Assembly: GCA_024276795.1 (NCBI GenBank)
Contig: JAJRWK010000236.1
Span: forward strand, 1 to 39,347
DNA: 39,347 bases
Origin: an archaeon
GTDB lineage: Archaea; Asgardarchaeota; Heimdallarchaeia; Heimdallarchaeales; JAJRWK01
Direction of reading: 5' to 3'
Of this stretch, positions 6,548 through 36,820 are shown piece by piece (the stretch's first letter is position 1; each line of letters opens with the position of its first letter). Below the pieces are notes generated by a model, which was not told where the DNA came from, ran no database searches, and saw only the letters and a list, made by a program, of their open reading frames with translations. A program made the position numbers and the translations under genes.

Positions 6548-9500
6548 TCAAGTTGCTTTTTTCTTTCCTAGTTTCTTCTTGAGGAGTTGAATCGCCGTGT
6601 AAGTGGTTACAGCTATGCCCAGCCCAACATAAACACCATACTCTTGTACTGTTGTGTTTACCGATTTTTCTGCTTTGGCAAGGAGATCTTTGGGGTTCTC
6701 CACGTTGTATGATTGGCTGAAAGCTTGAGAGTTCCCAGCATTGTCGAGAACAGTAAAAGTGACGTTGTGAACGCCATTGCTTACTTTTGTTGTATCCCAT
6801 AGCACGGCTAGTGGAGAGGTGCTACCAAGGGACATGGTTTCATTATCTATTGTTAGAGTTAGTTCACTGATGCCACTTCCATCGTCTTGAGCAATTATTG
6901 TGAAATTAACAACTCCGGTTAAGGTTTGATGAGGCAGTGGTCCCAAGACGTTTATTTCTGGCGGGATCAGATCCTTTACGATATAGGCAAGTGGGGAGTT
7001 TTCTGAACCGATTGTGGCTGTTTGTCCATAGATGTCTGCGGCTATGACGTAGTAATTTACAATTGTTCCCCAAGGTTGCGGTGGAATAGTTGCCCAGTAG
7101 AGGATCGTTGATTCATTCATTTGTTCTTGTTTCCACTCGGAGTTGTTGATTTGATAGTAAAGGGTTACATGTCCTATGCTCGAGTTATCTTGTGCACTGA
7201 TATATACGGTGGTGGGTTTTCCATATTGAGGGATTTGAGGATTGAGAACCAAAGAGGACAATAATGGAGCTGAAAAATCGTTAAGTAATTTTAAATAGAT
7301 CCCACTTAGGGTTTTGATGTTGTTTTCCTGGTCGAATGCCCTGATTATTAATTCGTATTTTCCATTGGATAGTTGCCGGGAGTTCCATTCGAAAGAGTAC
7401 GGGCTCTGAGACACATTCTCGATAAGGGTTGAGTTTAAGTAGAATTCAACAAATTTTACTCCGCTACCTTCATCTTGACATATTGTGGAAAACATGATAG
7501 TGTTTTGTAGTATGGAATTGTTTACGGGGTTTTTCAAACCAATTGTTGGTGGTTTGTCGTCTCCTATTCTGACGGTATAGTTTAATCCTGCATTGTCAAA
7601 TATTGCCGAGTTCCCATAAATGTCTGAGAGAGTAATGTAGTAAGAGATTATCGTTCCATACGAGAACGCGGGAAATGTAAATTGAAACCATTGAGAGGCT
7701 GTCTCGTTCTTGGTCCCTAACAATACTGCGGAAGTCTTGCTTGTGGTGTAGGAAAGGGTAATGTTGCTTATTTTTGCATGTTCGTCCATGGCTTTGATTT
7801 CTAAGATTGTTTGCCGGTAGTATACTGGAGGGAATTGTTGCCGCAGTTCTATTAGTTGAGGGGGAGTCGTATCTAAGAAGAATTCCACATTGTCAAATAG
7901 AACGGTTGATGGTGCAGATCCGAAGGTTTGAAGACCAAGATATACGTAAGCAATGTGGTATGTAGCATATCCAAAAGTAGTGTTCAGATCTTTTTGCAAG
8001 TTTCTTTCAAAGACGTTCCATTGACTAGTTATGTTGAACTGAGGAGCTAATAGATACGCACGATAGGAGTCATTGGCGAGGTTAAATGTCCCACCAAGTA
8101 TGTACCATAGTTCGCGGGAATTATCGAAGGTGATCCTAGCATAAGCCATTGTATTTCCTTCTATGTTGAGTTGATCTATCCTCCATGTGAAGGAGAGGTA
8201 CAGAGAATCTGTGACCCGCCAGTTGTTGTAATAGCGTAGCAAATTGGCTTGGTCATTTCCGTAGCTAGTAATGTTAGCAATCCAGTTTTCGGTGTTGGAG
8301 TATTTCACGTGATGTAGGAACGCGTTGTTTCCAATGTTGCGCCATCCAGGGATGGGATATGTCGTGCCGTTATCAACGTATTCAAATTCGGGATCCCCAT
8401 TAAGGTGTGCAAGGAATTTGAGATCATCGAACAATATCGTGCCTGAAGAATTGGCTTGTAAACCAAGTTGTATCCTAAAGGAAAAGGAATAGGTAAGAAG
8501 ATTTGTGTAATTCAGCTTCCAAAATAAGTCATAAAGGTCTATTGTTTCATTTATCCAAGTATTTTTTGTGCCAAGGCTTGGTGAGGAAACAATAATTGTT
8601 TGGGAGGTGTTAGATGGTAGTGGTTCTTGACTATCATAGCTAAGGTAGTATTGAATAACATAGTGTCTACTCGAATTCCGAGCTTGGATTTCTAGATATA
8701 CGTGTTGTCCTCCATTTGAAGTTCCATTGTATTTCCAAGAGAAGGTGACTAGTGTTGTATTGGGTTTGTATGGATAGTGGCCTCGAGGCTCGTAGTAGTC
8801 AGCCCACCGTAGATCCTCGTAGCCAGATGCGTCGGGGGCAAATTTTTTTATTGTCATGTTGAATGATTGGTTTCCTTCTACGCTGTCAGAAGATGTTGTA
8901 TAGTAGCTCTGCGAGGGTTCGTGTCTAGACCAATACATGTTGTCCCCTTGTTCAAAATCACCATTTGCAGCAAAATAGTCGTAGTTTGTACTATTTTTGA
9001 GGCTAACGTCATCAACGATGAGGATAATCTGGTTGCTTGAGCCAACGGAGTTATAGAGATAGTATCGGAAACTGCTAAGATAGAGGGGGGGTGATATTGT
9101 GCCGAATAAGGTTTCAAAGTCACGCGTGAAGTTTCTGGTGAAGAATTGCCATGTTCCAAAGGATGTTGTGTTTAAGATGAGATACTTTGTGTTTGTTTGG
9201 TTGGATGGGATTCCTGTCGCTTCCAACATTAGGTAGTAGTATACGGAGTAATAGCTTGTTGTGTTGGAAAAGCTAACATAAAGATATGCTACATCGCCCG
9301 GATCGATTTTGTTGATTGGGGGGAGGTAGTAGAAGAAAGTTCCTTGCAAATTTTCATCAACGAAAGGGTAGTTTGAGAAATACCTGTGAAGATAGGCATC
9401 CCCACTAAATATTTCCCCGTGACTACTGAGAACCCCACTATAGGAACCCCCATGAGTAATTGCTTGGTAGGTCCCATTTGATTCTGAGTACTCGCTACCA

Positions 9501-9811
9501 TCGAGTGTAAGGGGTGTGAGGGGTTTTCCAGAATTGTCTGTTGCTTCGAAAGAGCCTGATCCATTTAAAAGATCGAAGAGATAAGTATCACGAGTTTTAT
9601 TGGCCGCAATCCCGAGAGGAGCGATGTTGGATTGTTTAGAAGGAAATACTGTAGTTGACTTAGAAGGAGAGACAAGGGCAGGAGGTACTTCAGTTGGGAG
9701 GAGGTTTACATCTAGGGGGGGTTGTTTATTATTTATTGTTGAATTAGCAAGTGGGGGTGATCCTAGTGAACTGGTAATGATGATTGCTAAAATCCAGATT
9801 TTCATCTTCAT
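6548..9811 (-). CDS. Large surface protein: signal peptide, repeated beta-sandwich/CBM-like modules, tandem Ig-like (Big) domains, C-terminal TM anchor with KKK tail
   Basis: 1087 aa; repeated FDD/FDNVEF modules, four DxxxPP...-led Ig-like modules (e.g. DDKPPTIGLKNPVNNSI...VEFYLNSTLIENVSQSPYSFEWNS), very many N-x-S/T sequons, C-term YGVYVGLGIAVTTYTAIQLLKKKLGKKKAT. Confidence 0.75.
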   Translation of the reverse strand: MKMKIWILAIIITSSLGSPPLANSTINNKQPPLDVNLLPTEVPPALVSPSKSTTVFPSKQSNIAPLGIAANKTRDTYLFDLLNGSGSFEATDNSGKPLTPLTLDGSEYSESNGTYQAITHGGSYSGVLSSHGEIFSGDAYLHRYFSNYPFVDENLQGTFFYYLPPINKIDPGDVAYLYVSFSNTTSYYSVYYYLMLEATGIPSNQTNTKYLILNTTSFGTWQFFTRNFTRDFETLFGTISPPLYLSSFRYYLYNSVGSSNQIILIVDDVSLKNSTNYDYFAANGDFEQGDNMYWSRHEPSQSYYTTSSDSVEGNQSFNMTIKKFAPDASGYEDLRWADYYEPRGHYPYKPNTTLVTFSWKYNGTSNGGQHVYLEIQARNSSRHYVIQYYLSYDSQEPLPSNTSQTIIVSSPSLGTKNTWINETIDLYDLFWKLNYTNLLTYSFSFRIQLGLQANSSGTILFDDLKFLAHLNGDPEFEYVDNGTTYPIPGWRNIGNNAFLHHVKYSNTENWIANITSYGNDQANLLRYYNNWRVTDSLYLSFTWRIDQLNIEGNTMAYARITFDNSRELWYILGGTFNLANDSYRAYLLAPQFNITSQWNVFERNLQKDLNTTFGYATYHIAYVYLGLQTFGSAPSTVLFDNVEFFLDTTPPQLIELRQQFPPVYYRQTILEIKAMDEHAKISNITLSYTTSKTSAVLLGTKNETASQWFQFTFPAFSYGTIISYYITLSDIYGNSAIFDNAGLNYTVRIGDDKPPTIGLKNPVNNSILQNTIMFSTICQDEGSGVKFVEFYLNSTLIENVSQSPYSFEWNSRQLSNGKYELIIRAFDQENNIKTLSGIYLKLLNDFSAPLLSSLVLNPQIPQYGKPTTVYISAQDNSSIGHVTLYYQINNSEWKQEQMNESTILYWATIPPQPWGTIVNYYVIAADIYGQTATIGSENSPLAYIVKDLIPPEINVLGPLPHQTLTGVVNFTIIAQDDGSGISELTLTIDNETMSLGSTSPLAVLWDTTKVSNGVHNVTFTVLDNAGNSQAFSQSYNVENPKDLLAKAEKSVNTTVQEYGVYVGLGIAVTTYTAIQLLKKKLGKKKAT

Positions 9812-13760: not shown

Positions 13761-14636
13761 CTACAAGTTTTCTAGTTTTTTCAAGGCTTCCATTAGGGCT
13801 TTTTGATCTTCACTTATCGGTGTAGGAATTTTTCGCTCCTCTTTTGCTTCAGGTTCTGGAGCAGGTGGGTTGAGGGTGTCACCGGCAGGTGTGGGTGGAC
13901 TGGTTGGTGAGGGAATAGAGTCTAAAGAGCCGGGCATGTTAGCCAATGAGTCGGCAGGGGAGGGTGGTAACGGTTTTGTCTCGGGGTGAGTGATAGATGA
14001 AGGAGGTCGTTCTGTGGAAGCGGGAGCCTCGGGGATGGTCTTGGTTAGAGGTTCGGTTTGAGCATTTTCTATGATGATTGGTTTGGCAGGGCTTGAAGGT
14101 ATTGATGCGGGTTCTTTTGTGGATGCGGTGATAGGAGCCGTGGCTGGCGGTGTTGTAGAGGAAAGTGTTGAGCTGATGGTCGGGGGTTCCGTTTCGAGGG
14201 GCTTGGCGGGGGATTCATGAATGATTTCCTGAGGAATGACTTCTTTTTTCTCTTCTCTGGCTACTGGTTTTAGGTCTTCAATAGCCGATTGTAGCACTTG
14301 AATTTGTGAAGAGAGTCTTTTCTCAAGATCATGAAGTTGGTCTCTCAGAGTGGTTACTTCGTCTTTCACTTCGCTTAGATCTGCGCTTTCTGTGATCTGA
14401 GGCATAGGGGGTGGTGAGTGGGGTGGGGCTACCATGCGATTCTCTAATGCCTCCACGGACTTTGCCAGCTGGATGACTTTTTTCTCGAGCTGGTTGATAC
14501 GAGTGTTTGTTTCTTCAAGGCGTTCTTTCATTTGGTCGCGGAGTTTCTCTAGATTAGAAACAATAAGACGAATGGCTTTTGCGACGGTACCAGACTTTTC
14601 ATCGCTTGACACGGCAATCATATGAAGATAGATCAA
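13761..14636 (-). CDS. Coiled-coil protein with long Pro/Ser/Thr-rich low-complexity C-terminal region
   Basis: Heptad-like N-terminal half followed by a P/S/T/E-rich region. Confidence 0.6.
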   Translation of the reverse strand: MIYLHMIAVSSDEKSGTVAKAIRLIVSNLEKLRDQMKERLEETNTRINQLEKKVIQLAKSVEALENRMVAPPHSPPPMPQITESADLSEVKDEVTTLRDQLHDLEKRLSSQIQVLQSAIEDLKPVAREEKKEVIPQEIIHESPAKPLETEPPTISSTLSSTTPPATAPITASTKEPASIPSSPAKPIIIENAQTEPLTKTIPEAPASTERPPSSITHPETKPLPPSPADSLANMPGSLDSIPSPTSPPTPAGDTLNPPAPEPEAKEERKIPTPISEDQKALMEALKKLENL

Positions 14637-14790: not shown

Positions 14791-16551
14791 TTAAGCAAGG
14801 CTGGTGAGCTCGATTTTTGGTGCAATGCCTAGTGACATCAGTTCTTGAACTAGGAGCTTGAAGGCGTAACTGATTGTAATTTTCGAGACATTAACCTCGT
14901 CTCTGCAGATCGGGCATTCCATTTTGTCCTTGTTTCGGTTGTAGTAGGCAAGGAAGCCACATCGCTCGCATACTAGGATTTCGGATTTATCGGACTCATC
15001 TAGGAGTCGTTCTTTGAGGATGATTGCGCTTCCATGGCCGATTAGACAGTCTCTTTCCATTTCTCCGAATTTCAGGCCTCCTTCCCTTGCTCGTCCTTCG
15101 GTGGGTTGTCTGGTAAGGATTTGAACGGGTCCTCGGGCACGTGCGTGAATCTTGTCGTTTACGAGGTGGTGGAGCTTTTGATAGAATGCGATGCCCACGA
15201 AGACTTCTGCTTCGAGCTTTTCACCTGTTCTCCCGTCATACATGACTCTTCTGCCGTATGGCTGGAGACCGTGTTCTTTTAGTGATGAGATAAGGTCGTC
15301 AGAGCTGATTCCTTCAAATGCTGTTGCGTATACAGGTTTTCCTTGTTCCGAAGCGAGGAGACCAGAGAGAAGTTCTAGGAGCTGTCCAATGGTCATCCGG
15401 CTGGGGATTGCGTGTGGATTGATTATGAGGTCGGGAACGATTCCGTCTTCTGAGAAGGGCATGTCTTCTTGTTTAGCAATGTAGCCGATGACTCCCTTCT
15501 GTCCATGTCGTGAAGCGAATTTGTCTCCCACTTCTGGAATTCTTAAGCTTCGCATTTTAACTTTGACGAGTTTGTTACCTTCTTGGGTTTCAGTGATCAC
15601 GACGAGATCTGCGACTCCTGTTTCACCAAATCTCATACTAACACTGGTTTCTCTTCTGCGTTCAAATTGCATTGGCATGTCGAAGTCTTGGTATTCTTCT
15701 ATGAATCTTGGGGGACTGGTTCGGCCGATGATGACTTCTCCCTTGTTTCCATCTACCTCGGCTTCTGGTTCCACGATACCGTCTTCTGCGAGGTGTCGGT
15801 ATACCTTGGGGTTTTTGTAACCCCGAGCGTCTTCTGAGGGGATTTCGAAACGGTCTTCTTGACCACCCGGATATTTTCGTTCTTCTGATTCGTAGGATCT
15901 GAAGAATGTACTTCGACCTAATCCTCTGTCAATACTTGCTTGGTTGAAGATGAGGGCATCTTCCATGTTGTAACCACCGTAGGAGAGAAGGGCGACAACA
16001 AAGTTTTGGCCTGCGGGACGGTCGTCGAAACCGATTGTTTTCATGGCGTGGGTCTTTACTAGAGGGATTTGTGGGTAATGCAGAACATGTCCTCTGGTAT
16101 CCATTCGTAGCCTAAAGTTGGCAGCATAGATCCCAAGAGCTTGTTTTGCCATTCCTGCTTCGTAGACATTTCTGTCTGAACGGTTATGTTCGGGGAATGG
16201 GATGAGGGATGCGGTAATGCCAAGAATCGTGCTTGGTTCGATTTCAACGTGTGTGTGTTCTTCAGTTACTTGGTCGAGAGACAGTGCGATATATGCGTTC
16301 TCTTCTTCTTCGGCGTCTAAATATTCGATGACTCCTTGTCGTATGAGGTCTTGCCAGCCAAGTTCTCCTTTTTTGATTTTTTCCAAGTGGTTCTCTTTCA
16401 GTAATGGTCGGCCATCTTTAACAATAATGAGCGGCCTACGTACTCGTCCATGATCGCTGTTGATTTGGACTTCTTGAACATCGGGATAGTATGCAACATT
16501 GACCTCGGAGGGCAGTCTTTGTCTTCTGCGATTCAGTCGGATTTGTTCCAC
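14791..16551 (-). CDS. rpoB: RNA polymerase subunit B, C-terminal part (B'-like); GTG start two codons after an in-frame TAA
   Basis: EVNVAYYPDVQEVQINSDHGRVRRPLIIV, ILGITASLIPFPEHNRSDRNVYEAGMAKQALG, GDKFASRHGQKGVIG, zinc-ribbon CERCGFLAYYNRNKDKMECPIC. Confidence 0.95.
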   Translation of the reverse strand: MEQIRLNRRRQRLPSEVNVAYYPDVQEVQINSDHGRVRRPLIIVKDGRPLLKENHLEKIKKGELGWQDLIRQGVIEYLDAEEEENAYIALSLDQVTEEHTHVEIEPSTILGITASLIPFPEHNRSDRNVYEAGMAKQALGIYAANFRLRMDTRGHVLHYPQIPLVKTHAMKTIGFDDRPAGQNFVVALLSYGGYNMEDALIFNQASIDRGLGRSTFFRSYESEERKYPGGQEDRFEIPSEDARGYKNPKVYRHLAEDGIVEPEAEVDGNKGEVIIGRTSPPRFIEEYQDFDMPMQFERRRETSVSMRFGETGVADLVVITETQEGNKLVKVKMRSLRIPEVGDKFASRHGQKGVIGYIAKQEDMPFSEDGIVPDLIINPHAIPSRMTIGQLLELLSGLLASEQGKPVYATAFEGISSDDLISSLKEHGLQPYGRRVMYDGRTGEKLEAEVFVGIAFYQKLHHLVNDKIHARARGPVQILTRQPTEGRAREGGLKFGEMERDCLIGHGSAIILKERLLDESDKSEILVCERCGFLAYYNRNKDKMECPICRDEVNVSKITISYAFKLLVQELMSLGIAPKIELTSLA

Positions 16552-16557
16552 GAGAAT

Positions 16558-18570
16558 TTAAGGATTTTGATGGAATCCGATTAGTCTCCCATTTAAGAAA
16601 ACACTAGCAACTTCTTTTCCAACAGATGTGCGCTCTCCTTGAAAGACGCCTGCATTTTCGCAGAATTCTTCGATGATTTTTTCATCAACACCGGTACAGA
16701 TGTGTGCTTGTAAGGCCAGGTTTTTGACCAGACCACAGTTTGGTCCTTCGGGGGTTTCATTCGGGCAGTTGTGTGTAACAAAGCCGTTTGCAATAAAACT
16801 GTGGGTATTTTCCTTTGTTGTAAAGTCCATTACGATATCGTGGTCGGTCTCTTGAATTGATACGATTGGTTCGTATAGCATGCCGGTTTCCAAAGATGCT
16901 CGAGTGAGTTCTAGGAATTGTGCGGGGTTTAGGCTGGATTTTAGGCGGGCAGCAGAGGATTCATCATAGTTTCGTTGAATGGTTGAGGTTACCACGCGAT
17001 ATTTTTCGCCTAAATGCTCTGCAATTTCCTTTGGTTTCAAGCCTTGTTCGTAGAGTTGAATAACTTTTTCTCTGAGAACGGTTTGTTTTTGGATTTTATT
17101 CTCTCGATATGCAAGATATTCTTGGATCAGTTGTGCTTTGTGCTGTTTTTCAGCACAGTAACGGTATCCAATTCGCTCACAAAGTGCTTTGATGTTTCTC
17201 TTGGATCCGTCGAATAGCATTTGTGCTTTGACTTGACTTTTGTTTTCTAAAGTTCTGACATGAATATTGCTGATTCTGATTCCTAATTCTTCGAACATTA
17301 ATTTTAGAGAGCTCATGAATTGCACAAGACTTTCGGTGAGTGCAGAGTTCTTGTGTATTTCAAAGTGAGGAAGACGGATTTTGTAGCTAGAATCCTTCCC
17401 GCTTCGCTGGTAAAACCAAGGCGCAGAGCCATTCCCACCCATGATTCCTCCAAGGAACTCTCGCTTGACTAGTTTTGAACAGCTCTTAAGCCACCAAGGA
17501 ATGTCATGTGGGATGTCGGTTCTTTTCCCTTGCGGAATCCCAAGAGCTTTCAAAAGATGTCTAAATGCCCCATTTGTTGTTACGTATGTTCGATATTCTG
17601 TTTCTCCAAAGCGTGTTATTTTTTCCTCAAAAACATTGGGGCGAAATCCGAGCCGTTGTAGATCTCGTTGAATAGTCTCTATGTCGTCTCTTGATCGGAC
17701 GTAGAATTCAACGGTAGATGTTCCTACGTGACCGCTAGTAATAACAAGCCCCATTAATCGAGCAATGACAGGGAGCTTTTCATTATCAGAATCTAAAGGT
17801 AATAAACCGAGCTTTCTCAGTTCTGCTATGTCTTGTTGAAGGTTTTCATCACGAACAAGGTCATCTTGATTGGCAACTAAAAAGTCTTCTTCAGAGATGA
17901 TTTCGAAAGTAGCAACATCATTATTTTCGTTTTCTTCTTCAATCTTTTCGAGAACTGGTCTTATGAGGACTTGATCCTTAGGTGTTAGGTCTCCAGCTTC
18001 GATCCATCCTCTTGTTGTCAAGAATGGATGATCTTCGGTAGCTATAATGGATCGACCCGTTATTGTCCGTATTTCAAAAACTCTCTTACCGAGTTCTTTA
18101 GCAGAGACTATCTGGAATGCTGTTAGCTCTGACGGGACTTCTTGCTTGGTTTCAGGGTCGACGGTGAGAACTTTGGCTTGGTCATAACTTGATTTTAGGG
18201 AGTGAATGGGGACAACGCTGAATCCGTCGTCAAGGAGAACATTTGAGTCGGGGGCAACGCATATCTTTCCCCAATGTGTGGGGTGTAAGTCTCGTGCCTC
18301 GAAGTGGGGTTGACTACGGCTTAAGGGGCTAACAACTCGTCGCAGATGGCTGAGGGCAGACATGTAGTTTGTTCGGTCTAGTAGTTGGCTAACACCGGCT
18401 TTTCCACCACTCCAATTGCCTGTTGCGAGAGCGTGTCTGAGTCGTTCAGTGATTACATCTGCCCGGACGGCTGTTTTTAGACTGGGTGTTCGCCCTCTGC
18501 CAGAGTTGCGCTCTAGCTGATACTTGATGTCTCGAGTCAGTGCTCGGAAAGCGTTTCTGAATAGTTGCAT
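16558..18570 (-). CDS. rpoB: RNA polymerase subunit B, central part, containing an intein
   Basis: MQLFRNAFRALTRDIKYQLERN...ARDLHPTHWGKI / intein / CPNETPEGPNCGLVKNLALQAHI...VFLNGRLIGFHQNP*. In frame with both flanking rpoB ORFs. Confidence 0.95.
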   Translation of the reverse strand: MQLFRNAFRALTRDIKYQLERNSGRGRTPSLKTAVRADVITERLRHALATGNWSGGKAGVSQLLDRTNYMSALSHLRRVVSPLSRSQPHFEARDLHPTHWGKICVAPDSNVLLDDGFSVVPIHSLKSSYDQAKVLTVDPETKQEVPSELTAFQIVSAKELGKRVFEIRTITGRSIIATEDHPFLTTRGWIEAGDLTPKDQVLIRPVLEKIEEENENNDVATFEIISEEDFLVANQDDLVRDENLQQDIAELRKLGLLPLDSDNEKLPVIARLMGLVITSGHVGTSTVEFYVRSRDDIETIQRDLQRLGFRPNVFEEKITRFGETEYRTYVTTNGAFRHLLKALGIPQGKRTDIPHDIPWWLKSCSKLVKREFLGGIMGGNGSAPWFYQRSGKDSSYKIRLPHFEIHKNSALTESLVQFMSSLKLMFEELGIRISNIHVRTLENKSQVKAQMLFDGSKRNIKALCERIGYRYCAEKQHKAQLIQEYLAYRENKIQKQTVLREKVIQLYEQGLKPKEIAEHLGEKYRVVTSTIQRNYDESSAARLKSSLNPAQFLELTRASLETGMLYEPIVSIQETDHDIVMDFTTKENTHSFIANGFVTHNCPNETPEGPNCGLVKNLALQAHICTGVDEKIIEEFCENAGVFQGERTSVGKEVASVFLNGRLIGFHQNP
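16768..18261 (-). other. Intein (about 498 aa) with degenerate LAGLIDADG endonuclease domain, inserted in RpoB before CPNETPEGPN
   Basis: Starts CVAPDSNVLLDDGFSVVPI, has block-B-like TGRSIIATEDHPFLTTRGWIEAGDL, ends HSFIANGFVTHN, followed by +1 Cys. Confidence 0.95.
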
Positions 18571-18627
18571 GAGGAGATCTCCAGCTAGGTTGAGTCTTTT
18601 GTTTGCGTAGTGATCTTTGTCGTCTTC

Positions 18628-19656
18628 TTATCTTCTTCCGAGATGGAGCTCTAAAACCCGAGTTGCCATTTGGCAGAGGTAGCGTGCCTTCTCGATTCGT
18701 TCCTCTTCATTATCCCCAATGTGAGGGAGGAGATATTTGTCCAAGACTTGTTTGGTTCTTTCGAGGCGGTATTCCTTGGACTGACCAACAGCGATCCGTT
18801 TTCCGATATAGTCTAGGGCGTCTTCTGTGGTTCTGACTTCCGGTTCTGCTTGTAGGGCGGGAAATAGAGCTTTCCTCAGTTCTGCATCGTTTCCTGCGAT
18901 TTGTATCGTAATGTCTCGGTCTTTTTCCATTCCAAGAGCTTTTAGTAGTACAACGAGGGGGATTTTTCTCGAAACGCTTGGAAAACTGACTCTTAACGTG
19001 CCGTCCTTGTTCAACTCAAGGGTAACGGGTGCACGAAAACCTTGTTTCGTACTGAATACTTTAGCTAGAGCAGTGACGCTACTTTTCCCATCTAGTTTTT
19101 CTGTGAGAATCCTATTTGGAGCAAGGTCTTCTTGGGTTACGATGACTCTTTCACTCCCGTTAATGATAAAATATCCTCCAGGGTCTCTTGGGTCTTCTTG
19201 GAGTTCTTTGGAATCACCTTTTGAACGTGAAAGAGGGCATTTCACAGATTTGAGCATGATTGGTAGATATCCGATCCTAACTTCTTCAGGTTCGCCATCA
19301 CTTACATTTCCATCTTCGTCAATGAAGACGGGAGTCATTTTTAGGATGAGTTCGCCGGCGTAGGTTAGGTTTCGGATTCTAGCTTCCATTGGTTTTACGT
19401 TAGTGAATGACCCGTCAGCTTCTCTGACCGTTGGTTCTTTGACCGTGATATCATCTAGGCGAACATAATATTGGGTTACTTCAGGTGGAAGTTCTAGTTC
19501 GATTTTTTCTTCTTCTTTTATGATTTGCAATAGCCCTTTTTGGATAAAGTCATTGAAACTATCCAAATGCTGTCTGACTAACCCCATTTCTTCAAACATA
19601 GCATTTGCTATTGCCCATTTCTCATCAATTGTTAACTTGCGAGTGATTGCTGCCAT
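18628..19656 (-). CDS. rpoB: RNA polymerase subunit B, N-terminal part, ending at an in-frame TAA after ELHLGRR
   Basis: LIKSVKCPLSR-type motif (MLKSVKCPLSRSKGDS), GGYFIINGSERVIVTQEDLAPNRI; in frame with downstream rpoB ORFs. Confidence 0.95.
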   Translation of the reverse strand: MAAITRKLTIDEKWAIANAMFEEMGLVRQHLDSFNDFIQKGLLQIIKEEEKIELELPPEVTQYYVRLDDITVKEPTVREADGSFTNVKPMEARIRNLTYAGELILKMTPVFIDEDGNVSDGEPEEVRIGYLPIMLKSVKCPLSRSKGDSKELQEDPRDPGGYFIINGSERVIVTQEDLAPNRILTEKLDGKSSVTALAKVFSTKQGFRAPVTLELNKDGTLRVSFPSVSRKIPLVVLLKALGMEKDRDITIQIAGNDAELRKALFPALQAEPEVRTTEDALDYIGKRIAVGQSKEYRLERTKQVLDKYLLPHIGDNEEERIEKARYLCQMATRVLELHLGRR

Positions 19657-21635: not shown

Positions 21636-22850
21636 TTAGGAGAAGAACTGTGATGTTGCGAATTGGTCTTTTTGTTGTCTCCTTTTGACCTTTTTCACCG
21701 CTTCAACAAAATGTCTGTGCTTGACTGAGGTTAGTCTTTCTCTAACTGCCAGAATGCCGGCTTCCATACATACATTCTTGATTTCTGCTCCGCTGAAGTT
21801 TTCAGTCATATCCGCTAAAGCGACTAGGTCGACATCGTTGGCTAGGGAAATGCGGCGAGCATGGACTTTGAAGATCTCTAACCGGCCTTCAGAGTTTGGT
21901 AAGGGAACTTCGATGATGCGATCGAAGCGCCCGGGCCGCACGAGGGCACTATCTAGGATGTCGGGTCGATTTGTTGCTGCGATTACTTTTACGTCACCGC
22001 GTGGTTCGAAGCCGTCTAAGCAACTAAGCAATTGCATAAGGGTTCTCTGCACTTCTCGGTCACCGCTTGTGCCCATGTCGAGGCGTTTGCTTCCAATAGC
22101 ATCAAGTTCGTCAATAAAGAGGATTGTTGGGGTGTGTTCTTCAGCGAATCTAAAAATTTCTCTGACTAGACGTGCTCCTTCACCGATGAATTTTTGGACT
22201 AGTTCGCTTCCAATTACCCGAATAAATCGCGCCTCGGTCTCATGTGCCACGGCTCGAGCGAGAAGGGTTTTCCCGGTTCCAGGGGGACCGTGTAGGAGGA
22301 CTCCTTTAGGGGGTTCGATACCTACTTGTTCAAAGAGTTCGGGAGATTTTAAGGGGAGTTCTACTATTTCTCGCAATTCTTCTATTTGTTCTCCTAATCC
22401 GCCAATGTCAGCATAGCTGACTTGAGGACGTTCTTCGATTTCCATGGCCCGAACCATGGGATCATGACTTTCTGGTAAGACATCGACGATTGCAAAAGAT
22501 CGTTGGTTCAGAGCAACCCTAACGTTTGGCTGTAGGAGTTTTCTATCAATTCTGCTACTTATGCTCACAACCATTGTTGGACCCGTTGTGGATCGAATAA
22601 CAGCTGTTTGTTTGTCAAGAACTTCGACTAATTGGCCAGTGAACAGCGGCGGTGCTCGGAGACGTTCCAATTCAGTTCGTAGGTTATTCAATTCTCTTTG
22701 TAGCCTGAGTCGTTCACCTTCTACCACTTGCTTTTCGGTTTCTAAGCGTTTTTTCTGCCGCTCCAGGTGTCGGGTATACGAAAGCAAGTAGCTGGTGTCC
22801 GCTTCGTTTAGGTCCTGCTCCGTGTTTTTGTCTTTGATTCGTGAAGGCAT
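21636..22850 (-). CDS. pan: Proteasome-activating nucleotidase (PAN/Rpt-like AAA+ ATPase)
   Basis: N-terminal coiled coil; DIGGLGEQIEELREIVELPL, GPPGTGKTLLARAVAHET, ILFIDELDAIGSKR, RPGRFDRIIEVPLPN. Confidence 0.95.
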   Translation of the reverse strand: MPSRIKDKNTEQDLNEADTSYLLSYTRHLERQKKRLETEKQVVEGERLRLQRELNNLRTELERLRAPPLFTGQLVEVLDKQTAVIRSTTGPTMVVSISSRIDRKLLQPNVRVALNQRSFAIVDVLPESHDPMVRAMEIEERPQVSYADIGGLGEQIEELREIVELPLKSPELFEQVGIEPPKGVLLHGPPGTGKTLLARAVAHETEARFIRVIGSELVQKFIGEGARLVREIFRFAEEHTPTILFIDELDAIGSKRLDMGTSGDREVQRTLMQLLSCLDGFEPRGDVKVIAATNRPDILDSALVRPGRFDRIIEVPLPNSEGRLEIFKVHARRISLANDVDLVALADMTENFSGAEIKNVCMEAGILAVRERLTSVKHRHFVEAVKKVKRRQQKDQFATSQFFS

Positions 22851-22977: not shown

Positions 22978-25050
22978 CTATTCAGGAGGATCCCCTAGCT
23001 TTGAGAGACTTTTTTCAACTTCTTCTTTTGGGTTAAGGAAAACAAAGCGGCTTACACTGATTTCTAATCGTTTCATTTCCTCTCTTAACCGTACTTTGCC
23101 TGTAATTCGAATCTCGTTTAAGAGAAGTTTTTCGTCTAGAAATGCTTGGACAGCCTCTGGACTGTGTTCTTCTTTAAGAGCCTCAAGATCCTCTATGCTG
23201 AGACCGAGAACCCGTTCCACTTGATCTCCAAAAAAAGTACAATGTAGGGTCTCTGTTGCATCATCAACGACTAGGGAGAGTATTCCTCGTTTTGTTGCTT
23301 CTTGAACTAAGCCATGGGTCTCGCACATGTTATCGGGCGTAATTTTCTTGTTGCATTCTGGGCAGGCAGAATAGATCACGGGTTCGAAGATTTTCACGAT
23401 TGTACCTTCTATGGTTACGAATTCACCATCTTGCACGGTAGCGATTTCTCTGGGCTCCTCGGTTCCTACGGGATATGGACGGTTAATGAGAGCATCTGCT
23501 GTCATGAGGATGTCGTCCATGTTCTCTAATTCTATGGGTTTTACATAGCTTCCACGTCCGAATAGCAGTTCAACACCTTGTTCTGTTGTTTTTGGAGAAA
23601 GATTACCGAATTCATAGCCAAGACCTTCTTGAACCTCAGAAAGTTTTTGTGCGCTGTCGTCCCATGCGATGATTCTTACTTGGCCAGTACTGTCAGAGAC
23701 AATTAGGGCTTGGAGCTTGCCTGAAGAGCCGTCTTTTCTAGTGAATTCTCTTAGAGGGTCTTTTCGCAGTATTTTCCCGCGAATTATTACGGAAGCTGAT
23801 TCCTCGGATAGTTCATCGATGGGAGTAGAAAGTTCTGTGAAGGAGGAAGATTCGGAATTGATTGTTTCAATCGTCCCGTATCGTCCAAGAGAAAGTTCGG
23901 GTTGGTCAGTGCCATAGCCTTCTCTTGCCATTGCATTGGAAATCTTGATAGTAGATCCAGGTTCGATAGTGTTGCTTTCTTCTGCTTTTTCGTCCCATAG
24001 GGTTAGGCGAGTGGAACCCGTATCGTCTTTAATGTACAACGTTGCTACTTTTCCTTCGGAACCATCTTTTCGTTGAATTGTGCGAGGTGATTCTTTGCCT
24101 ACAACAACGGCAATAAGTGAGACGTTTTTCATTTCGGGTTTCAGATCTTTGATTTTCACGTCATTTTCTTCGAATTGTTTTTCGGGAAGAGTAATATCTT
24201 GGCATTCGTCGTCGGAGAGTTTACGGAAAACGGTGTACTGCCCGCTGTGGAGCTCTAAGTCTCGTCCTTCTTGTTGTCTTGGCCGCAAGTTAAGTATTTC
24301 CACGCATGCGCCAGGGTCAAGTGACTGGATTGTTTCGGCCTCATTTCCCCAAAAAACAACTCTGATGGTGTTTTCCTGATCTTTAAGAATGAGAGAAGCC
24401 ACCTTGCCTTCGGATCCATCAGATCTGCTGAATGTAGAAACGGGATATATATTTGCAATTTTGCCTTTTATTGAGACTTCGTCAGAATCGCTAGTAATGT
24501 CTTTTATTGCAGTGAATTCTTTTGAAACTTCTGGAATGTTATCATCGCCTTCCATTTTTTCGATTTTCCCGCGATTGCCAATATGAAGCTCTACAGCCGT
24601 GTTTCTTCCAGGTTTTGTATATGCCCCTACAACCTTGACCACGTCTCCGACTTGAAGGTCTTGGTCTTCAACGTAGGCCGTAGCATGATCCCATAGTACT
24701 AATGTGATTGATCCTGTTTCATCGACGAGTTCAATTCTTCTTAGAGCCCCGATGCCACCATCTTTTCTTTGAAATTCACGAATTGCCGATATACGAGTTA
24801 TTCTTCCTTTGATGGAGACGTTATTCATCATAGGATTTAGATCTGCGATCTGGATAGGTTCAAAATGTGTGCTACCAGAAAGGTCAACCCCAAGTTCCCG
24901 GGCAACTATGTGGGCAGCTCCTTGCTCTGTGAGAAAGCCACCCAAATTCTGTATTTTCTGTTGCACCAGGCGGTGTATTTCTTCTCGGGATAGGTTTTTT
25001 TGCTCTTCGATCAATCTAATGATTTCTTCCAATGGGAGATTATGACTCAT
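22978..25050 (-). CDS. RPA-like protein with five predicted OB folds and a C-terminal zinc finger
   Basis: Four repeats of the type IxDLxPxMxNVSIKGRI...RKDGxxGKVxxLxLxDETGxxRxxLWD, plus a C-terminal OB containing CPECNKKITPDNMCETH. Confidence 0.9.
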   Translation of the reverse strand: MSHNLPLEEIIRLIEEQKNLSREEIHRLVQQKIQNLGGFLTEQGAAHIVARELGVDLSGSTHFEPIQIADLNPMMNNVSIKGRITRISAIREFQRKDGGIGALRRIELVDETGSITLVLWDHATAYVEDQDLQVGDVVKVVGAYTKPGRNTAVELHIGNRGKIEKMEGDDNIPEVSKEFTAIKDITSDSDEVSIKGKIANIYPVSTFSRSDGSEGKVASLILKDQENTIRVVFWGNEAETIQSLDPGACVEILNLRPRQQEGRDLELHSGQYTVFRKLSDDECQDITLPEKQFEENDVKIKDLKPEMKNVSLIAVVVGKESPRTIQRKDGSEGKVATLYIKDDTGSTRLTLWDEKAEESNTIEPGSTIKISNAMAREGYGTDQPELSLGRYGTIETINSESSSFTELSTPIDELSEESASVIIRGKILRKDPLREFTRKDGSSGKLQALIVSDSTGQVRIIAWDDSAQKLSEVQEGLGYEFGNLSPKTTEQGVELLFGRGSYVKPIELENMDDILMTADALINRPYPVGTEEPREIATVQDGEFVTIEGTIVKIFEPVIYSACPECNKKITPDNMCETHGLVQEATKRGILSLVVDDATETLHCTFFGDQVERVLGLSIEDLEALKEEHSPEAVQAFLDEKLLLNEIRITGKVRLREEMKRLEISVSRFVFLNPKEEVEKSLSKLGDPPE

Positions 25051-36732: not shown

Positions 36733-36820
36733 TGGAGCCCTGGGCGGGTCTTGAACCCGCGACCTCGTCCTTTTTGGAGAAAGATACCAAGGACGCGCTC
36801 TACCCCTGAGCTACCAGGGC
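36733..36820 (-). tRNA. tRNA-Thr(GGT) with a 13-nt intron at 36772-36784; CCA encoded
   Basis: GCCCTGG..GCTC AGGGGTAGA GC..CGTCC-TTGGTA[TCTTTCTCCAAAA]A-GGACG..GCGGG TTCAAGA CCCGC..CCAGGGC-T-CCA; U73 fits archaeal tRNA-Thr. Confidence 0.93.

Follow-up and report, generated by a model that had tools for sequence, protein, structure and literature searches.

The rpoB gene of this archaeal draft genome, whose nearest named relatives are Heimdallarchaeota MAGs, is interrupted by two in-frame TAA codons that are most probably base errors in a thinly covered metagenome assembly. Stray stops of all three kinds also occurred in other genes of the draft, which makes base errors the most likely explanation rather than a new genetic code. 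The cell itself would then have sense codons at both sites (Glu in the sister genome) and would make a single RpoB precursor of the ordinary kind and splice the intein out of it. A preliminary description of this DNA had offered three possibilities: that the stop is read through or recoded, that a base is wrong, or that the mutation is very recent. In our ranking base error comes first, a real and recent nonsense allele second, and readthrough or reading of TAA as Glu a remote third. Genuine stops would mean that an essential gene of an archaeon depends on reading through UAA, which would be a striking departure from the genetic code. As it is, the case cautions that recoding can be mimicked by stops in Asgard drafts of low depth; the two are told apart by a genome-wide count of all three stops, by the tRNAs, by the release factor and by same-genus sisters.

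Organization of the rpoB locus

The window, i.e. the whole stretch of DNA analysed, is a complete contig of 39,347 bases from a 2.72 Mb MAG in 295 contigs with a completeness of 87%. The features of the locus are listed below together with the codons found in two genomes of the same genus (G001 and G002).

19656 to 14791, minus strand: rpoB, in three open pieces
18631..19656, minus strand: rpoB part 1, 342 aa, Rpb2 domains 1-2 (Pfam)
18628..18630, minus strand: first in-frame TAA, rpoB frame codon 343; GAA in G001, GAC in G002
16561..18627, minus strand: rpoB part 2, 689 codons open, with the end of domain 1, domain 3 and an intein (Pfam)
18573..18582, no strand assigned: palindrome GGAGATCTCC, preceding the ATG at 18570
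16768..18261, minus strand: rpoB intein, in frame, 498 codons, with a splicing domain and a weak LAGLIDADG match
16558..16560, minus strand: second in-frame TAA, rpoB frame codon 1033; GAA in G001 and G002
14791..16557, minus strand: rpoB part 3, 588 aa and stop, Rpb2 domains 4-7 (Pfam)

The first TAA stands in the assembly as previously described: the minus strand reads CTCGGAAGAAGA TAA GAAGACGACAAAGATCACTACGCAAAC, with the TAA at 18630-18628 closing an upstream ORF (19656-18628) of 342 aa. The next ATG (18570) lies 19 codons further on, and no ATG, GTG or TTG occurs in between. The second TAA, in the context GFHQNP*ILVEQIR, was missing from the preliminary description. The palindrome reported there just before the ATG is indeed present, but it looks like a chance occurrence: none of the six relatives examined has it, and perfect 10-bp palindromes number 26 in the window. 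No second copy of rpoB was found in the bin, which is 87% complete.

Upstream of rpoB and on the same strand are genes for a proteasomal-type AAA ATPase (21636-22850, minus strand) and for an RPA-like protein of 690 aa containing several OB folds (22978-25050, minus strand), and both are conserved on the contig of the sister genome. The gene downstream of rpoB (13764-14636, minus strand) is a single frame in the window and occupies two frames in G001 (L031, 872-1731), the latter state being likely due to a frameshift in that 2.67x contig. Further along, the product of 6548-9811 (minus strand), which is 1087 aa long and carries bacterial Ig-like (Big_7) domains, is probably a surface protein.

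Conservation of rpoB in related genomes

Both sites were intact in the close relatives, as is to be expected of base errors. In G001 (contig 216, L031), rpoB and its intein formed one open frame of 1626 codons, and rpoB of G002 was likewise free of stops; comparison with sister genomes had been a check suggested at the outset. The contig title of G001, a comparable MAG, gives a coverage of 2.67x, a figure from which the depth of the present genome does not follow. The extein protein sequence was almost the same in G001 and in this genome, and the two exteins diverged by 0.36% at second codon positions and by 41% at third positions. This contrast indicates that the frame downstream of both stops was under strong purifying selection until very recently.

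Both stops fell in variable columns of the alignment with 81 homologues. The first column, previously believed to hold Glu throughout the family, contained G, D, E, N, P, T, K and S, and the second E, K, L, Q, R and others. (The junction Cys is counted double in the extein numbering past the intein, which makes columns after 466 one too high.) In a test of little power, no missense change was recorded in this genome at 228 near-invariant rpoB columns; private missense changes, considered as an independent sign of error, thus gave the error model no support. Two nonsense changes in a single gene, both at tolerant columns and accompanied by 0/228 near-invariant missense changes, are mildly improbable under random error because missense errors are expected to exceed nonsense errors by ~16 to 1.

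The stops could instead be real and very recent nonsense mutations, carried by a dying or duplicate rpoB or by a defective population haplotype, with an intact copy outside the bin. We regard this as unlikely, and less so than the other alternatives discussed below. The completeness of 87% would allow an intact copy to be absent from the bin, and in two of the other interrupted genes a frameshift accompanies the stop, as in pseudogenes. Yet rpoB is an essential gene with one copy in the bin, no near-invariant column was violated, and lesions in many unrelated genes would require genome-wide decay. Constraint was not relaxed along the gene as it would be in a pseudogene, although a very recent lesion would show no relaxation either.

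Stray stops elsewhere in the draft

Base errors would be expected to leave similar lesions in other genes, and such lesions were spread over the draft and less frequent in better assemblies. In a 763 kb sample of the genome, a codon-usage scan for frames that stay coding past a stop and lack a start codon in the eight codons that follow returned 24 candidates (31 per Mb), mostly unverified individually. The same scan gave 2 candidates in 400 kb (5 per Mb) of the single-contig genome G010 and 1 in 400 kb (2.5 per Mb) of G005. Proteins of G010 and G005 were also searched against the sample, each search covering ~20,000 codons. Six genes other than rpoB were pursued with Pfam and sister sequences, and two further candidates had weaker homology:

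L036:4420, TAG: methyltransferase, Q in sister
L113:1598, TGA: aminotransferase, L in sister
L118:6523, TAA: ABC transporter subunit, D in G002
L091:1284, TAA: MacB-like protein, K in sister
L130:5796, TAA: amidohydrolase, E in sister
L136:1453, TAA: second aminotransferase, E in sister
L113:737, TAA: weaker-homology candidate
L036:5906, TAG: weaker-homology candidate

All six genes were interrupted here and intact in the sisters; Pfam domains spanned five of the six stops, and the sixth stood at a domain edge. One-base deletions relative to the sister were found near L113:2604 and L136:1130. Lesions were grouped by contig, with three in contig 49 and two in each of contigs 2, 90 and 165. A survey of PF00005 recorded no interrupted domain among the matches listed for this genome.

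These features resemble the base errors that fragment genes in draft assemblies, where isolated stops and one-base deletions hit constrained genes, involve all three stops, cluster by contig and are absent from sisters. The present case differs in that its stops lean towards GAA>TAA and that error is called by inference. The full tally was eight strong cases (the two rpoB stops included) and two weak ones, i.e. seven TAA, two TAG and one TGA. With the genome's own codon usage, random substitution would be expected to yield TAA, TAG and TGA at ~44:30:26, GAA>TAA making up 12% of nonsense changes, a share that would reach 37% if only G>T/C>A changes occurred. Judged from inferred ancestral codons, ~5 of the ten stops were probable GAA>TAA changes, against 12% expected under uniform error; this excess weakens the case for uniform random error and hints at, without proving, a G-to-T type of error. 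The set is small and not free of bias, since the window entered the analysis on account of its stop and sister sequences were retrieved for selected candidates only; within these limits, a G>T-leaning error process fits its composition better than a uniform one.

Comparison with split B subunit genes

Separately open rpoB pieces recall the split archaeal RNA polymerase B subunit (B''/B'), and rpoB might be truly split here into three separately translated pieces, a reading that we hold to be very unlikely. In its favour, a GTG is found two codons past the second stop, and the natural break of the B subunit in Methanothrix loci (near extein residues 495-510) lies in a similar region. The stops here fall at extein residues 343 and ~535, however, the second some 25-40 residues beyond the Methanothrix break, and the first would remove the conserved DDKDHYANKRL segment; the preliminary description was right that a simple split would drop this nearly universal stretch. 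Moreover, rpoB is unsplit in G001 and G002. A B''/B' gene was rejected, as the stop positions do not fit.

Tests of stop codon recoding

Under another explanation, a suppressor tRNA or natural readthrough would place an amino acid, mostly Glu, at UAA codons in tolerant sites, so that full-length RpoB is made while UAA still terminates most genes. This has very little probability in our estimate. In its favour, sisters have Glu at the two rpoB stops and at no fewer than two others, and the two rpoB columns are variable and would tolerate any residue. On the other side, TAA has not been lost as a terminator, since it ended 145 of the 368 ORFs with 250 or more codons in the 763 kb sample. Nor does it stand alone in frame as a reassigned codon would: TAG and TGA interrupt conserved genes too.

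The tRNA complement spoke against such decoding as well. Rfam revealed 41 tRNAs, and every anticodon was readable once archaeal introns were allowed, the last one resolved (on contig 145) being CAT by inspection. None of the 41 had a UUA, CUA or UCA anticodon, the genome being 87% complete so that a gene may be missing; the suppressor tRNA with anticodon TTA, proposed earlier as a check, was thus not among them. Since all 41 were resolved and none reads a stop, recoding by a suppressor tRNA was rejected. Two tRNAs called SeC by ARAGORN (L066, L074) read as Arg(tct) and Arg(tcg) with introns, and the tRNA of the window (36733-36820, minus strand), called Lys(ctt), reads as Thr(ggt) with an intron. 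Intron-bearing tRNAs are misread when intron settings are absent.

Ciliate release factors vary at the NIKS-type motif, and the NIKD found in aRF1 of this genome (contig 235) at first looked suggestive of an altered release factor. This candidate was rejected, as NIKD is normal for the whole order: it was present in aRF1 of all order members examined. Both NIKD and YVCDNIF were equal to those of the same-genus sister, so aRF1 motifs give no sign of altered specificity. Two other class members had NIKS in aRF1, as do most release factors (loci of the comparison: L296, L294, L295 and L326-L331); S, L, N or D have been reported at that motif position in published alignments (PMC2613156).

Reassignment of stop codons such as UAA/UAG to Gln or Glu in ciliates resembles the present case in that stops fall within the frame of an essential gene, at sites where relatives mostly carry a sense codon, for example Glu. 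Here, in contrast, TAA is a common terminator, TAG and TGA are premature too, no tRNA matches and the release factor is unchanged. A Codetta screen of prokaryote genomes noted that stops in pseudogenes can yield false reassignments (PMC8629427), and our literature search returned nothing relevant on stop readthrough in Asgard archaea. A UAA-reading system is without positive support beyond the stops themselves.

The rpoB intein

The middle piece of rpoB gave Pfam matches to Intein_splicing and, weakly, to LAGLIDADG. The intein is inserted in HPTHWGKI|CPNETPEGPN, and G001 has an intein at the identical site; G002 has none. Both stops lie outside the intein, which does not explain them. Of loci L181-L187, L182 (Helarchaeota) and L183 (Borrarchaeum) matched the whole query, intein stretch included, at 56% identity, and L185-L187 did so at 31-34%, indicating that the intein is sporadic across distant archaea.
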